A stretch of 49,529 bases of DNA from Candidatus Poseidoniales archaeon (lineage in GTDB: Archaea > Thermoplasmatota > Poseidoniia > Poseidoniales > Poseidoniaceae). Shown in pieces: positions 12,633 through 17,931 of this stretch (its first letter is position 1; the number at the start of each line of letters is the position of its first letter). The position numbers were made by a program, and so were the translations under genes. The notes beneath the pieces are model-generated. The model was not told the origin of the DNA and searched no databases. It saw only the letters and a program-made list of their open reading frames with translations. The stretch lies in assembly GCA_003602605.1 (NCBI GenBank), contig QQRW01000028.1:62111-111639 (forward strand), in the 5' to 3' direction.

Positions 12633-13106
12633 TCATCGAACTTTACGATTCCAAGGCGGCCAAGAACGGAATCCTTTGGTCGATTCTCGGTCAGCGAAGA
12701 CATGGATACGTATTGCTTCACCATCGATGATGAGGGCGTCATCAGCGGTAAGTCCAGGGCATGTCTCCTTTACATCTCTCCATGCTCTGTCGGTTGCAAG
12801 GTTCTCTGACCACCATGGAAAGGCTGCACACTGCTGAGGCCGGACAGTATAGATGGTGCATTGTTTATTTTGGTCAAGATAGATGCAAACATCATCAACT
12901 TCACGACTTTTGAGAACATAACGGCCATCAAGTGTTTGACGACAATCCCTTTCCAGCCATTCTTCGACTTCCATACCGTGGTGCTTGGAAATGCGTTCTG
13001 CATCTGTGATGGATAGGTACACAATACCACCAGGCTCATCACAGCATTTACCGCAATTTGATTGGCAAGAGAAGGCTACGCCCTCCATCCACCACGGTGG
13101 TCTCAT
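12633..13106 (-). CDS. YkgJ-family cysteine-cluster protein
   Basis: A 157-residue protein of the Fe-S/zinc-chelating YkgJ (CxCxxCC-like) family, function unknown. The cysteine cluster is C14, C18, C21 and C22 (CQSNCGKCC); CIYLD(x)nC(x)IY(x)RP(x)QC follows, which is the second half of the motif (about 74-97), and a further Cys sits at about 117. Members are often linked to RNA or protein modification, but no reaction is proven. The ATG at 13106 overlaps the stop of the DnaA-like gene as ATGA, implying translational coupling. It is therefore the third gene of the unusual DUF835 / DnaA-like cluster. Confidence 0.88.
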   Translation of the reverse strand: MRPPWWMEGVAFSCQSNCGKCCDEPGGIVYLSITDAERISKHHGMEVEEWLERDCRQTLDGRYVLKSREVDDVCIYLDQNKQCTIYTVRPQQCAAFPWWSENLATDRAWRDVKETCPGLTADDALIIDGEAIRIHVFADRESTKGFRSWPPWNRKVR

Positions 13107-15136
13107 TCCTCTTCACCCGTTTGCATAGTTTGAACTGGACGGATCCGACCTAATCTGATCTTACGAGGTTGCGGAGATTCATCGAGTAAATCCATCATAT
13201 CGACGCTGCGTGAATCAACATTCCATTCCCCGTCGGGTTCGTGACTGTCAAGAGGGTCTACGACTTTGCTTGGTTTTCTACGGTTTGCTTTTCGCCTTTC
13301 ATTTCGAACACTGTCCTCTTCCATTTCGGGCCAAGGTTCTCGGTCGGGGTCGAATTCAATGAGGTTACTTTCCATTTTTCGCAACTCGTCAGCGATGTGA
13401 ATCAATTCCTCAATCGATGCTTCTGAAGTGCGTTCTGAGAGGTCATGAAGTTGAGATTCAAGATTTCCAAGTTGGATGGAACTCTCAATCAAGTCGCGTT
13501 CAAACGAGTTTATCCGATGATCAAATGCTTCATCCAACTCTGTTAAAACATCTGCAGCCAAACCGTAGTCTCTTTCCTCAATTCGTCCTTGGCGAGCGAT
13601 GAGATGTTGTTCCCTTTCATTGAGGTCAAGGACGGATGGTGCAGAAGGTGCGGTGTCTTCCAGTGCAATTTTCAGATATTCTGAATGCCTCCGTTCCCCG
13701 GATTCAACCAGTTCGCGAGCATTGAGTTCTGGCGGCATGTACTCGTCGTCACCGAGTTCAGGTAATTTCGAATAAAGGTCGATCCCTCCATGGACTTCAT
13801 CGCTGTAAACGGTATCAACTGCTGAATCGATGAGGCGCATCGCAATGTCCTCCACCTTTTCACGTGCGTAAGGTTGTTCGGGGGTTGCTGTTTTTACTTG
13901 ATTTGACAACAATGCAGTGACATCTTCTCCATCAAATACTTCATCGCCGGACTGGAGGGCGAGGGCAACCAAGTCAAAATTGGCTTTAGTCGAATGCCAT
14001 CCAACGGTATCTTTGAGTACCAGGCTGGCCAATTGACTGTCGTTCATCATTAGACCTTTTTTGATAGCAAGGTGCCGAGCATACAACATCATACTCGAAG
14101 ACTGAGGTATCTCGAGATGTACCGATGCAGCATGCCGTGTGAGCTCCCACAGCCGTGAAGTTGGCCAATCGTCCGGGGTGCTTTTGGAAGTGAGCAACAC
14201 ATGCACGCCAAGGTTGAGAGCGTAGTCGATCATGAGTCCGATTTCATGAGCAAGTTCCGGATGATCGACGTTTGAATCAATGTCGTCAATAGCAAGTAAT
14301 CTTGCATTTACGAGCGTATCTTGCCATCCATCTGGCAACCGCTCCAAGCCTGCCAATTCAGCGCTGGTAAGCATGTACACATTCCCCTCTTGACGGCGGA
14401 GAACAGCTTGCGCAGTTGCGTGGAGAAGGTGCGTCCTTCCAGTTTGTGAGGCACCAATGAAGAGCAAAGGGTTGAGCTGCCCTCCGGGAGAATCGACAAC
14501 GGCATCTGCTGCCTGTGTAGCACGTCTGTTTTCTGGAATACTGAACCACTGCTTGAAACTCTTGCGAACTTCGGGGCGAAGTCTAAGCGGCCAAACGCCT
14601 TCGGCTGGCAAAACCACGCTGTGATGGAACGGTGAGGTCTCTTCCGGGGATGCCAACTCTTCAGAGAGGGCATGGGTTGCTCGGCCACGATGGCCATCGA
14701 GTACAGATTTCCATACGGGACTTCCATCTTGTTCCATCCCCAGGTAGCTGTCTTCGACAGGTTCAGTGTTCTGTTCGATGGATTCGAAAGTTCGTTGTCG
14801 CAGCGAGCGAATACGCCGGGCTGCGATGTCTGCGAGTGAATCGCCATTGGACTGAAGTTCAATTGCAGGTTTTCTTTTCGTGTTTTGTTTGCCGAGCACC
14901 CCGTCAGCTACCAGTTCAAAGGTTGGACGCTCAACGATTCCAGTTCGTTGCAGAAGAGTGCCTTGGCGACGATCGACTACACCTTTTTTTCCCAACAAGC
15001 GGTTGAGTTTGGAGTTTGAGGATACAGAATCCGAGTCCTTTTTTGTGGTGACTCGTTCGACACCGATGCCACTGTGCTCAAGTTTCTGGCGGGCAAGTTC
15101 GAGCGCTAAGGCGAGTTTCTCACGTCGGGCGCTCAT
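13103..15136 (-). CDS. DnaA-like AAA+ protein with Arg in the Walker A lysine position
   Basis: A 677-residue protein. Residues about 205-400 resemble the AAA+ core of bacterial DnaA/Hda: NPLLFIGASQTGRTHLLHA around 222-240 (Walker A 228-235, with R234 where Lys is expected), LLAIDDID (280-287, Walker B), LLTSKS (314-319, sensor 1 position) and SRLWELTRHA (328-336, where DnaA has its arginine-finger box). A helical lid follows to about 395, with TKANFD near the sensor 2 position. There is no DnaA domain IV helix-turn-helix. Residues 1-200 are basic and partly disordered; 400-677 are acidic, then helical/coiled-coil (about 500-580), then basic. It is coupled by ATGA overlaps to the DUF835 gene upstream and the YkgJ gene downstream. 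A true replication initiator is unlikely; a regulator or DNA-associated switch is an inference. Confidence 0.8.
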   Translation of the reverse strand: MSARREKLALALELARQKLEHSGIGVERVTTKKDSDSVSSNSKLNRLLGKKGVVDRRQGTLLQRTGIVERPTFELVADGVLGKQNTKRKPAIELQSNGDSLADIAARRIRSLRQRTFESIEQNTEPVEDSYLGMEQDGSPVWKSVLDGHRGRATHALSEELASPEETSPFHHSVVLPAEGVWPLRLRPEVRKSFKQWFSIPENRRATQAADAVVDSPGGQLNPLLFIGASQTGRTHLLHATAQAVLRRQEGNVYMLTSAELAGLERLPDGWQDTLVNARLLAIDDIDSNVDHPELAHEIGLMIDYALNLGVHVLLTSKSTPDDWPTSRLWELTRHAASVHLEIPQSSSMMLYARHLAIKKGLMMNDSQLASLVLKDTVGWHSTKANFDLVALALQSGDEVFDGEDVTALLSNQVKTATPEQPYAREKVEDIAMRLIDSAVDTVYSDEVHGGIDLYSKLPELGDDEYMPPELNARELVESGERRHSEYLKIALEDTAPSAPSVLDLNEREQHLIARQGRIEERDYGLAADVLTELDEAFDHRINSFERDLIESSIQLGNLESQLHDLSERTSEASIEELIHIADELRKMESNLIEFDPDREPWPEMEEDSVRNERRKANRRKPSKVVDPLDSHEPDGEWNVDSRSVDMMDLLDESPQPRKIRLGRIRPVQTMQTGEEE

Positions 15137-17106
15137 TTCTCCTCCGCCTCCTTTTCCTTGCGAAGTCGTTCTCTGTCTTCAATTTCCCACACGCTGAGTT
15201 TGTCTTCAAGCGAAGGTTTTGATTGGCGGCGGAACGCACCCTCTCTGCTTGGTTTATCACCCTGATTTTGGGTCATGGCGCCAGGCCGGGCCATGTGTGG
15301 GGTAAGTGATGTCTGCGTATCGACCGGCATTCTGTCATTAACCGCTTCAATCGGCCTGCTGGCAAGGGGGGTTTCTGGGAGTCGGTGTTCTCGTGTATTG
15401 ACGTGCTGCCGAGTAGCATCCAACACGGATGAGTTCATCCGTGGCAAAACACTCATTTTTGCTACTGCTTTTTCTTGGCGATTCGTATAATTGTCAAGTT
15501 TTGATGAAATTGCTTGTGGTGGTTGTATCTTGCCCTTGTCTATGTCGCTGAGGTCTTTTGCTTCTGTTGCATTGCGAACCGCCGCAAATAATGCGAGTTG
15601 ATTTTTACGATTTGGTCGTGCGACAGACTTCTTCTTTTTTCTGCGAACTTTTTTTGCTCGGCGTGGGGCTGCAGGTGGGGCAATGACCGGCCGCTTCTTG
15701 CTCGCTTGGACGGCAACAGTTTCCTTCGACTCCATCTCGATTACAGTTGCAATCGAATCGTGCAAAATGGTTTCTGGAACCGATGTCTTGGGTGTTGAAA
15801 TATCCCGGTGCGTGGGCTCATCAAAGCTTTGATTTGGTACCAACTCGTCATTGTGTTTTGCTTCAATTGCCTCTTCTTCGTTTTCGTTACTCCATTCCTG
15901 CACAACTGAATGAAGGGATTCCGTAGCAGCTTGTACATCTTCGGATTCTGGAGCATCCAACCCGCCTTCCATTGTTCCAAATACGCTCGATTGCGGTGCG
16001 ATAGGTCCGCCGCTTGAAGACGCAATCGCCTGTTGAAGTTGTTGTTCAATCCACTGCTTTTCTTCTTCACTGGCCGGTGCACAAAGTGGATGGTCTAACA
16101 AAAGGTCCGGTTCAAGATTCCAGTGTTCCAGTACCGATGCTTCGAGGTCAGTCATATAGCGTGAGAGATGCTGACGAGTTGTCAATGAGAAGGCATTGAA
16201 GTCAGCAGTTGTAAGGAATAAATGGTCTTCTAATCGAACTCCATCAACAATATCTCGTAGGAAATTGACGACTCGGTCGTCACCGTGTAGGCTAGAGAGA
16301 TACTCGATTCCTTCGAGAACCACGACTGCACGGAGATTTTCCCAGAGGAAAGAGTCAATCTTTCTGCGAATGTTGTCAAGACTCGGTTCAATGGATTTCT
16401 TTCCGTTGTTTTGAGACAGCCAAGAGCTGGATGCGATTGGAATATTGTGTTCGACATTGAGTGATTCAATATCATGTCGGGCAAGAACAAGTAACGGTCG
16501 TCCGTGCACCGCTAATTGGCCAGCAAGGTCGAACAGTGGAGATGGGTCTGCAGAGTCGAAGAAGTACGCATCACCCGGTCGAAGCATTTTTTCTAGACCG
16601 TCGAATCTTTGCATCATTGCTCGACTGCGGTGTCGAAGTGCTTCTGGCGCTTCAACAACCGTTTCCATCTCTGGAAGTCGTTCTTCACGGCGCCAACTGC
16701 TCGTTCGGAACCTTGACTTCGACCACCACTGGTGATTCTCTTGCTTCGGTTTTGTTTCTTGAACGGATTGGAAATGAGCCTCTGGATAGAGATTGAGTAT
16801 TCTGTCCATGTCGGAAAGTGGCAACTCATGCACTGCAATGAAAGAGTCGAGCAATGCACAATCGCTCTCGATGTCGAGTAAAGCCTCAAGTGCCATGCTG
16901 ATCGAATCAGACTCGTGAAGAGCCATCATGGGCGCTCCATCCTTGAAACCGATGTGACCTATTCGTGGCATCTCGTCCTTTGGCCGGCGTTCAATCCGCA
17001 GGTAACATGTTGTGGACAGACGTGCGATGTCCGTCGACAGAAGTTGCAATGAATCCGGTCCACCGCGCCGGACTTCCGTAACATCTCCTTGCGGCAGTTC
17101 CACCAT
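15133..17106 (-). CDS. DUF835-domain protein with long basic, disordered C-terminus
   Basis: 657 residues from the ATG at 17106; a GTG at 17112 is the longer alternative, but the Shine-Dalgarno sequence GGGGTGA (17113-17119) is spaced 6 nt from the ATG. Residues about 30-110 contain a GHIGFKDGAPMMALHESDS segment reminiscent of DUF4388/PATAN-like signalling domains. Residues about 175-320 match the archaeal DUF835 pattern: PLLVLARHD, IASSSWLS, a Walker-B-like VVVLEGIEYLSSL (about 262-274), and LFLTTADFNAFSL. There is no Walker A, so it probably does not hydrolyse ATP. Residues 330-657 are low complexity, with a strongly basic patch (RRAKKVRRKKKKS) suited to nucleic-acid contact. The stop overlaps the DnaA-like start (ATGA). 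The domain assignments are from pattern recognition. Confidence 0.75.
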   Translation of the reverse strand: MVELPQGDVTEVRRGGPDSLQLLSTDIARLSTTCYLRIERRPKDEMPRIGHIGFKDGAPMMALHESDSISMALEALLDIESDCALLDSFIAVHELPLSDMDRILNLYPEAHFQSVQETKPKQENHQWWSKSRFRTSSWRREERLPEMETVVEAPEALRHRSRAMMQRFDGLEKMLRPGDAYFFDSADPSPLFDLAGQLAVHGRPLLVLARHDIESLNVEHNIPIASSSWLSQNNGKKSIEPSLDNIRRKIDSFLWENLRAVVVLEGIEYLSSLHGDDRVVNFLRDIVDGVRLEDHLFLTTADFNAFSLTTRQHLSRYMTDLEASVLEHWNLEPDLLLDHPLCAPASEEEKQWIEQQLQQAIASSSGGPIAPQSSVFGTMEGGLDAPESEDVQAATESLHSVVQEWSNENEEEAIEAKHNDELVPNQSFDEPTHRDISTPKTSVPETILHDSIATVIEMESKETVAVQASKKRPVIAPPAAPRRAKKVRRKKKKSVARPNRKNQLALFAAVRNATEAKDLSDIDKGKIQPPQAISSKLDNYTNRQEKAVAKMSVLPRMNSSVLDATRQHVNTREHRLPETPLASRPIEAVNDRMPVDTQTSLTPHMARPGAMTQNQGDKPSREGAFRRQSKPSLEDKLSVWEIEDRERLRKEKEAEEK

Positions 17107-17112
17107 TTCCAC

Positions 17113-17128
17113 TCACCCCTTCGGGGTG
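17113..17128 (-). promoter_or_regulatory. Hairpin enclosing the ribosome binding site of the DUF835 / DnaA-like cluster
   Basis: On the minus strand CACCCC, GAA and GGGGTG form a perfect 6-bp stem with a 3-nt loop (17114-17128). The 3' arm plus the next A is the Shine-Dalgarno GGGGTGA (17113-17119), 6 nt before the ATG at 17106. Folding would hide the ribosome binding site, so translation of the three coupled genes could be switched by a protein, a ligand or temperature. The switch is an inference. Confidence 0.45.
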
Positions 17129-17277
17129 ATGCTTACGAGACACTTCTTGAAAGGTCCGGCTCGTTTCATTCATCCGGAGTGATTTGCCCGCTTCGACGTC
17201 CGAGCCGATTCCCAAGTCGATGGGGTTCTTTGGACGAATTACCGTGAAGTTGAAGGAGTACACGAGGATGGAAAACT
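17129..17277. other. Divergent intergenic region
   Basis: About 150 bp separate the DUF835 cluster (minus) from an unknown membrane gene (plus). It must hold the promoters for both, but I see no clear TATA box. GAGG at 17265-17268 is the likely ribosome binding site of the plus-strand gene. Short open frames through here have no coding character. Confidence 0.5.
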
Positions 17278-17931
17278 ATGGGCGAGCGTCACGAGGAATT
17301 GTCCTTGGAAATGCGGCGGTTCAATGCTCTTCCAATTGCGAAACCATTCACGATTCGCTTTGTTGGAGTTCTTGTCGTGTACGAACTAGCAGTACTGCTG
17401 TTGTTCCGCCTACTGCTTCCTATTTTTGAGTACACTTTCCTTCTCTTCCTCTTCATAATTGGTCTCAGCATAGGTGGCGGTTTCTACATTCGTCGAAATT
17501 CTCCTTTTCTCAATGTACCATTGGCAGTGAACCTGAACCATCCATTCATGAGCGATGCAGAACTTGGAAATGCGGTTGTGATGGTTCAATTTTCAGATGG
17601 CACATGGGCCGACATTGGTGTTGGAAGGGTGCGTTTGACGGCAGATGAGTTGATGGGAGGGGCTTTGCTCATACGGGATGATGAGGATTACACTGGTATT
17701 GGGCATTTTAGCAACCTCGATCCATCGCACCCCCGGCTAAAACGCTATGTGATTCTCATCAATCAAGCCATTGCATTGAGAGACGCAGTTAACGGTGATG
17801 AGGATACCATCGAAGATGCTCGTGAGCGTGAAAGCATTGACTATGGTTTGCTTGAACGATCCTGGTTAGAGGTCGATGAGAATTTAGAAATTGAACCGGA
17901 TGGTATCTTCAGCAAACTGCGAAGAGACTAA
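17278..17931 (+). CDS. Unknown membrane protein with acidic soluble domain
   Basis: A 217-residue protein I do not recognise. Two long hydrophobic segments (about residues 25-48 and 50-70) sit near the N-terminus. They are followed by a soluble domain of about 145 residues with a beta-rich start (VVMVQFSDGTWADIG) and an acidic helical end (DGDEDTIEDARERE-like). The ATG at 17278 has GAGG 9 nt upstream. It diverges from the DUF835 / DnaA-like cluster and is followed after 61 bp by another membrane protein. Function unknown. Confidence 0.75.
   Translation: MGERHEELSLEMRRFNALPIAKPFTIRFVGVLVVYELAVLLLFRLLLPIFEYTFLLFLFIIGLSIGGGFYIRRNSPFLNVPLAVNLNHPFMSDAELGNAVVMVQFSDGTWADIGVGRVRLTADELMGGALLIRDDEDYTGIGHFSNLDPSHPRLKRYVILINQAIALRDAVNGDEDTIEDARERESIDYGLLERSWLEVDENLEIEPDGIFSKLRRD

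Follow-up and report, generated by a model that had tools for sequence, protein, structure and literature searches.

The window analysed here, a stretch of 49,529 nucleotides from a Poseidoniales (Marine Group II) archaeon whose closest named relatives include Candidatus Poseidoniaceae MAGs, contains three minus-strand open reading frames, transcribed in the order gene 1 (15133-17106, 657 aa), gene 2 (13103-15136, 677 aa) and gene 3 (12633-13106, 157 aa). A sequence-only reading of the window had described these genes as a trio coupled by ATGA overlaps, and we found such an overlap at both junctions on the minus strand, at the positions given. It had also assigned a DUF835, a DnaA-like AAA+ and a YkgJ domain to the trio, all of which score above the Pfam cut-offs. 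The ORF caller starts gene 1 at a GTG at 17112, and the ATG at 17106, which is the conserved start of the relatives (MVELPQG), gives the 657-aa protein. The two large proteins, the products of genes 1 and 2, are acidic overall, with pI values of 5.5 and 5.0. The features of the locus are as follows.

15133-17106, minus strand: gene 1, N-domain and DUF835 (iKaiC) protein with a basic stretch in its tail, 657 aa (PF05763, start conservation, no Walker A)
16759-17106, minus strand: N-domain of gene 1, without a Pfam name (own profile, dufN)
16159-16521, minus strand: DUF835 domain, inactive KaiC-like (PF05763; iKaiC reading after the accessible text of PMC5847659)
15604-15666, minus strand: basic stretch PRRAKKVRRKKKK... 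in the gene 1 tail (sequence; related stretches in genus members)
13103-15136, minus strand: gene 2, DnaA-type AAA+ protein, 677 aa (PF00308, Hda/DnaA best, PDB profile matches)
14171-14563, minus strand: Pfam-matched part of the DnaA-type AAA+ core of gene 2 (PF00308)
14432-14455, minus strand: altered Walker A of gene 2, GASQTGRT, with Arg for Lys (motif alignment)
13361-13546, minus strand: C-terminal long helices of gene 2, possible coiled coil (predicted helices, profile aaaC)
12633-13106, minus strand: gene 3, CxxCxxCC (YkgJ/FliB-type) protein, accessory, 157 aa (PF03692, nine invariant Cys)
13041-13067, minus strand: cysteine motif CX3CX2CC of gene 3 (alignment)
17278-17931, plus strand: candidate fourth member, divergent gene for a 217-aa protein that has hydrophobic segments close to its N-terminus (trio association, hydropathy)
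17113-17129, minus strand: 7-bp hairpin directly before the gene 1 start (sequence; relatives' leaders)

Gene 1 scored 49.0 bits against the DUF835 profile PF05763 (Pfam cut-off 33.1), and an alignment of 11 sequences showed no Walker A motif, the combination that places it among the DUF835/iKaiC proteins. The earlier statement that DUF835 has no settled function holds only in part, as the domain is described in the accessible text of PMC5847659 as an inactivated KaiC-like ATPase domain and is listed there among the domains of archaeal response regulators. With the iKaiC proteins of archaeal two-component systems, as presented in that text, gene 1 shares both the Pfam domain and the missing Walker A; those proteins pair DUF835 with REC or PAS domains, whereas here it accompanies a DnaA-type AAA+ core. 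The N-domain, delimited by its own profile, is shared by trio members and several one-chain relatives, in which it stands first. Pfam returned nothing for this stretch at E ≤ 10, for which reason a likeness to PATAN/DUF4388 was dropped. A profile search returned no PDB relative of gene 1 at E ≤ 1. The strongly basic tail ascribed to the DUF835 protein is real as a basic stretch, which recurs in most aligned relatives from the genus and is weak in the second family. The genome from which the window comes has a second DUF835 gene (L001, G000:C33:2644-2991, in a 307-aa frame), and gene 1 of G017:C146 contains an in-frame TAG.

DnaA is regarded as the bacterial initiator and Orc1/Cdc6 as the archaeal one. 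Gene 2 had been read as carrying a DnaA-type AAA+ core, which one would not expect in an archaeon, and the profile searches uphold this: the protein scored 39.7 bits against PF00308 (Bac_DnaA; Pfam cut-off 23), the two top NCBIfam models were Hda (TIGR03420, 45.7 bits, below its equivalog cut-off of 194.8) and DnaA (TIGR00362, 43.0 bits, below 343.9), and no non-DnaA ATPase matched better. DnaA chains were also its best PDB profile matches among the best 60 of 63 hits; within the same set, viral hemagglutinin matches at E 0.09-0.95 map to the C-terminal helices and are probably spurious. These helices form a conserved region captured by the profile aaaC and reach a local pLDDT of 54-71 inside an otherwise poor AlphaFold model. 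PF00308 was the sole Pfam match at E ≤ 1, so that the DnaA DNA-binding domain (domain IV, Bac_DnaA_C) is missing, as had been noted, and the Cdc6_C winged helix, a feature of Orc1/Cdc6, was unmatched by Pfam anywhere in the trio. The Poseidoniales protein shares its AAA+ core family with domain III of bacterial DnaA and with Hda but, unlike bacterial DnaA, has no domain IV and is partnered with DUF835. Outside the phylum, PF00308 also matches in three of the named archaeal control genomes, as a profile match alone, and viral_contigs, scanned once with the AAA+ alignment, yielded no relative. The literature searched, which left most subscription papers outside its cover, held nothing on DnaA in Poseidoniales; the accessible text of PMC4158269 describes a DnaA-like ATPase of SSV and the fusion of a primase with a DnaA-like ATPase and a Zn finger, neither of which is a DnaA-DUF835 fusion.

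Gene 3 scored 44.4 bits against PF03692 (Pfam cut-off 23), and nine cysteines are invariant in 10 aligned sequences, which together mark it as a CxxCxxCC protein; a PDB profile search gave chance-level matches only. It has the N-terminal cysteine motif in common with the FliB/YkgJ proteins of the same Pfam family, and according to the accessible text of PMC8598068 the motif of FliB binds a [4Fe-4S] cluster and FliB methylates flagellin lysines. Gene 3 differs from FliB in the spacing of the motif, which is CX3CX2CC and not CX4CX3CC, in its length of 157 aa, in its archaeal operon context and in having an activity that is putative. By analogy with FliB one could guess that the Cys protein modifies lysines in the gene 1 tail. 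The frame of the Cys gene is broken in G163:C14.

Among 59 relatives, the trio occurred in the same 40 genomes and was jointly absent from 19 genomes of the second family. One of the genomes without the trio, G050, gave an extra weak gene 1 match in this search, to a 291-aa frame; it probably reflects an assembly gap, because its genus mates have the trio and G050 has no citrate synthase match either. Profile searches of 193 genomes of the order (thresholds 1e-3 for the AAA+ protein, 1e-20 for the Cys protein and 1e-12 for gene 1) identified 119 genomes with the AAA+ protein, 113 with the Cys protein and 117 with gene 1. After exclusion of the DUF835 match in G123, which was to a paralogue only, 109 genomes had all three genes, 72 had none and 12 were discordant. 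Six of the discordant loci stop at a contig end inside the cluster and two (G150, G179) lie at most 475 bases from one; in G113 the match is to an unrelated AAA+ protein; and G142, G151 and G155 have an otherwise intact locus in which no Cys gene separates gene 2 from citrate synthase. Genes 1 and 2 were found together in 114 of the 121 genomes having either, and the seven genomes with only one of them comprise six whose loci reach a contig end or lie no more than 475 bases from it, and the one unrelated AAA+ match.

In the loci compared, genes 1 and 2 lie on the same strand throughout (55/55 loci, of which 53 are distinct and two are present twice). Their in-frame ATGA overlap is found in 30 of the 55 loci, or 28 of the 53 distinct ones, in both families, and in most loci without it the open frames still overlap. 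Gene 3 is less constant, pointing the opposite way to gene 2 in 10 of 11 second-family loci and absent from the three genomes named above; genes 1 and 2 therefore form the core and gene 3 is separable from it. The proposed three-protein partnership thus lasts for genes 1 and 2, for which the fusions described below also speak, and fails as regards an equal standing of the YkgJ/CxxCxxCC protein, which is accessory.

Side-by-side conservation across the lineage had been named as support for a system. The co-occurrence counts go in that direction, but they do not decide the matter: the surroundings are collinear as well, over fetched stretches of up to 18 kb, and the trio-free loci belong together. 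All 17 of these loci keep the flanking genes for a KBL-type aminotransferase and citrate synthase, 58 to 1857 bases apart, with the trio missing en bloc, and in a tree of 55 loci they constitute one clade with a support of 1.0, so the co-loss is one event. The co-occurrence P values (2e-39 or less) ignore that the loss is one event and were hence set aside. Co-loss and synteny alone are insufficient to show a system and are weak as proof.

The divergent gene at 17278-17931 was searched for at the locus level and is present at 43 of 45 trio loci, both exceptions being at contig ends, and at 0 of 17 trio-free loci, where two other flank genes are retained in 13/17 and 15/17. Its product belongs to no Pfam family. 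This membrane-protein gene is a candidate fourth member of the cluster, subject to the same caveat of a single loss.

Stronger evidence on genes 1 and 2 comes from other Thermoplasmatota. The AAA+ profile was run against 292 genomes of the phylum and gave matches in 76, 26 of them outside Poseidoniales; from 19 of these 26 we selected 20 loci by hand. The DnaA-like core and DUF835 were encoded in one ORF at 10 of the 20 loci, in eight families, and as neighbouring genes at two more, in two further families; at the other eight loci with a DnaA-like AAA+ protein, DUF835 was not found in the fetched stretch. The N-domain profile of gene 1 matches the start of five of the 10 fusions, followed by the AAA+ core and, at the C-terminus, DUF835. 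Every module of the Poseidoniales pair is thus found in a single chain elsewhere in the phylum, although the domain order differs, as the N-domain and DUF835 share one chain in Poseidoniales and lie at opposite ends of the fusions. Three fully read fusions have a CxxC...CxxC stretch ahead of the core, with zinc-ribbon matches below the Pfam cut-offs.

The fusion cores are close to bacterial DnaA. Four fusion proteins scored 286.6-334.0 bits against TIGR00362 (cut-off 343.9), and one was up to 54% identical over about 230 aa to the best DnaA in a plasmid collection. The Poseidoniales cores are ~20% identical to the fusion cores and likewise ~20% to bacterial DnaA. In a tree of 233 columns they nest among the fusion cores, with long branches and many weak nodes, a position compatible with common descent and not proof of it.

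Three of the 20 loci (L124 3365-3991, L125 3575-4258 and L130 6799-7494) have a Rad51-family (Rad51/RadB-like) gene immediately after the fusion gene and in the same orientation; it was assigned in L125 by Pfam (101 bits) and, through identity to the L125 protein, in L130 (66%) and L124 (51%). The other neighbours of the fusion genes are mostly uninformative. We also observed thiC beside the fusion gene in L113, L114 and L116 and one gene away in L112, in four families. Three proteins of 1213-1273 aa (L117 3273-7091, L123 2783-6586 and L126 1-3639) match no DUF835 profile although they contain a DnaA-type AAA+ core; two of them show a weak N-domain match at the start, and that of L117 carries zinc ribbons at its C-terminus.

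Outside Poseidoniales the fusions mostly retain the DnaA-type sensor and arginine-finger motifs, as in bacterial DnaA, and the Walker A lysine is present in 20/20 outside domains. By contrast with bacterial DnaA and Hda, the Poseidoniales proteins have an unrecognisable SRF motif and often a replaced P-loop lysine. Among 60 distinct Poseidoniales AAA+ domains, 31 have Arg at the lysine position, 27 have Lys and 2 have Cys, and the window belongs to the first group (GASQTGRT), so that its Walker A lysine is not intact. The two Walker B positions are Asp in 57/60 each. The SRF arginine-finger column has Arg in 17/20 outside domains and in 0/60 Poseidoniales domains, in some of which a nearby Arg may take its place. 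Judged by these motifs, the Poseidoniales core is decaying, with P-loop decay in several genera. Since the P-loop lysine is replaced by Arg in the branch of the window, nucleotide binding without normal ATP turnover would be expected there. As gene 1 has no Walker A and its DUF835 is described as inactivated, both partners may be without ATP turnover in this lineage. In genus g11 (L099, L107) the P-loops read ASEGSGCS and AAPQAGCS, a loss of Walker A that goes beyond the lysine change.

Given the fusion in related archaea, the gene 1 and gene 2 proteins very probably work together. As the DnaA-type AAA+ core and a C-terminal DUF835, often with the N-domain first, form one chain in relatives, we read genes 1 and 2 as the split, two-protein version of that Thermoplasmatota protein, whose products would most likely form one complex. 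In this complex the DnaA-type subunit would assemble side by side, like DnaA cores, and the N-domain/DUF835 subunit would regulate or anchor it; in its Arg-P-loop form the assembly would bind nucleotide without normal turnover and so serve as a regulated scaffold rather than a motor. The CxxCxxCC protein would probably be a metal-cluster accessory acting on the complex, conceivably on the tail lysines as FliB acts on flagellin. We prefer the chromosome as the most likely site of action, with modest confidence, because of the Rad51-family neighbours, the zinc-ribbon-like motif of three fusions and the basic stretch in the tail. The DNA- or RNA-associated role proposed for the trio is possible, and nothing was found in support of the redox-sensing role suggested alongside it. 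AlphaFold models of genes 1 and 2 (pLDDT 43.5 and 38.3, with eight close sequences per alignment) gave no contact support. Also weighing against this explanation are the eight outside loci in which DUF835 was not found, the ~20% identity of the Poseidoniales cores to the fusion cores, the weakly resolved tree, the differing domain order, the sub-threshold zinc-ribbon matches, a Rad51-family neighbour at just three of 20 loci while four other fusion loci have thiC nearby, and the weakness of the basic stretch in the second family. We give this explanation as a whole, a split one-chain protein forming a chromosome-sited regulated scaffold with an accessory Cys protein, about an even chance of being right. 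Rather unlikely, though worth stating, is a bolder version in which a DnaA core, perhaps bacterial, joined a dead KaiC-type domain, spread in Thermoplasmatota, was split in Marine Group II and lost its ATPase in several branches, leaving a chromosome scaffold that works without nucleotide and is adjusted by an Fe-S enzyme modifying lysines. More generally, near-bacterial DnaA cores fused to an inactive KaiC-type domain in archaea, together with a decayed split form in an order that retains Orc1/Cdc6, suggest that a DnaA core has been turned to a different purpose; they also supply DUF835, little described in the literature searched, with a defined partner.

Other readings of the trio have to be weighed against this one. 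The genes could encode a membrane signal-transduction module in which the N-domain and DUF835 are sensor or receiver-like parts, the switch is the DnaA-like core, and the 17278-17931 protein provides the anchor. The listing of DUF835 in archaeal response regulators (accessible text of PMC5847659) fits this reading, as does the membrane-protein gene that tracks the trio at the locus (43/45 against 0/17), but the loss of that gene is the same single event and was followed at the locus only, and no receiver, PAS or kinase domain occurs among the Pfam matches listed for the trio or the scanned fusions. Nor is motility an obvious output, as archaellin does not track the trio; we consider a signalling module possible but doubtful. 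An archaellum link was likewise rejected, since archaellin (PF01917) is found in 40 of the 59 genomes, but a different 40 from those with the trio, genus g7 having the trio but no archaellin, and genus g4 and G050 the reverse. A defence system was also discarded, the best PADLOC score of the window's proteins being 12.7 bits and the better scores of a fusion protein falling mainly on generic ATPase parts.

Replication offers a further role. A separate Orc1/Cdc6 gene (PF09079) is present in 58 of 59 genomes, whether or not they have the trio, and on this ground the idea that the trio replaces Orc1/Cdc6 as initiator is dismissed. A DnaA/Hda-like regulator of initiation, acting on Orc1/Cdc6 or the clamp, would accord with that presence and with Hda and DnaA as the best scores of gene 2. 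Hda is a DnaA core without domain IV, which gene 2 resembles, and a clamp-binding motif is an Hda feature. Against such a regulator stand the one Poseidoniales clade that retains Orc1/Cdc6 without the trio and the P-loop decay in several genera, and we regard it as unlikely. That the genes are unrelated neighbours without joint function, kept by general gene-order conservation, would explain why the flanking genes are equally collinear and why one deletion in one trio-free clade accounts for the co-loss; it sits badly with the fusion in eight other families, the adjacency in two more and the ATGA overlap that 28 of 53 distinct loci share. For genes 1 and 2 it is already disfavoured, for gene 3 and the 17278-17931 gene it may still hold, and as a whole it is, in our estimate, very unlikely.

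The leader of gene 1 offers some minor observations. The hairpin at 17113-17129 (minus strand) is a perfect 7-bp stem, TCACCCC-GAA-GGGGTGA, whose 3' arm overlaps the ribosome-binding-like stretch GGGGTGA, which it may mask. Hairpins of at least 6 bp occur in 25 of 44 distinct relatives' leaders, against 14% of shuffles; the genus g5 version has a different sequence, and other leaders are without one. Some 40 bases upstream of gene 1, at 17144-17151 (minus strand), lies TTCAAGAA, of which the window holds 10 copies against 4.0 expected, and the similar TTCAAGA is found upstream in many relatives of both families.
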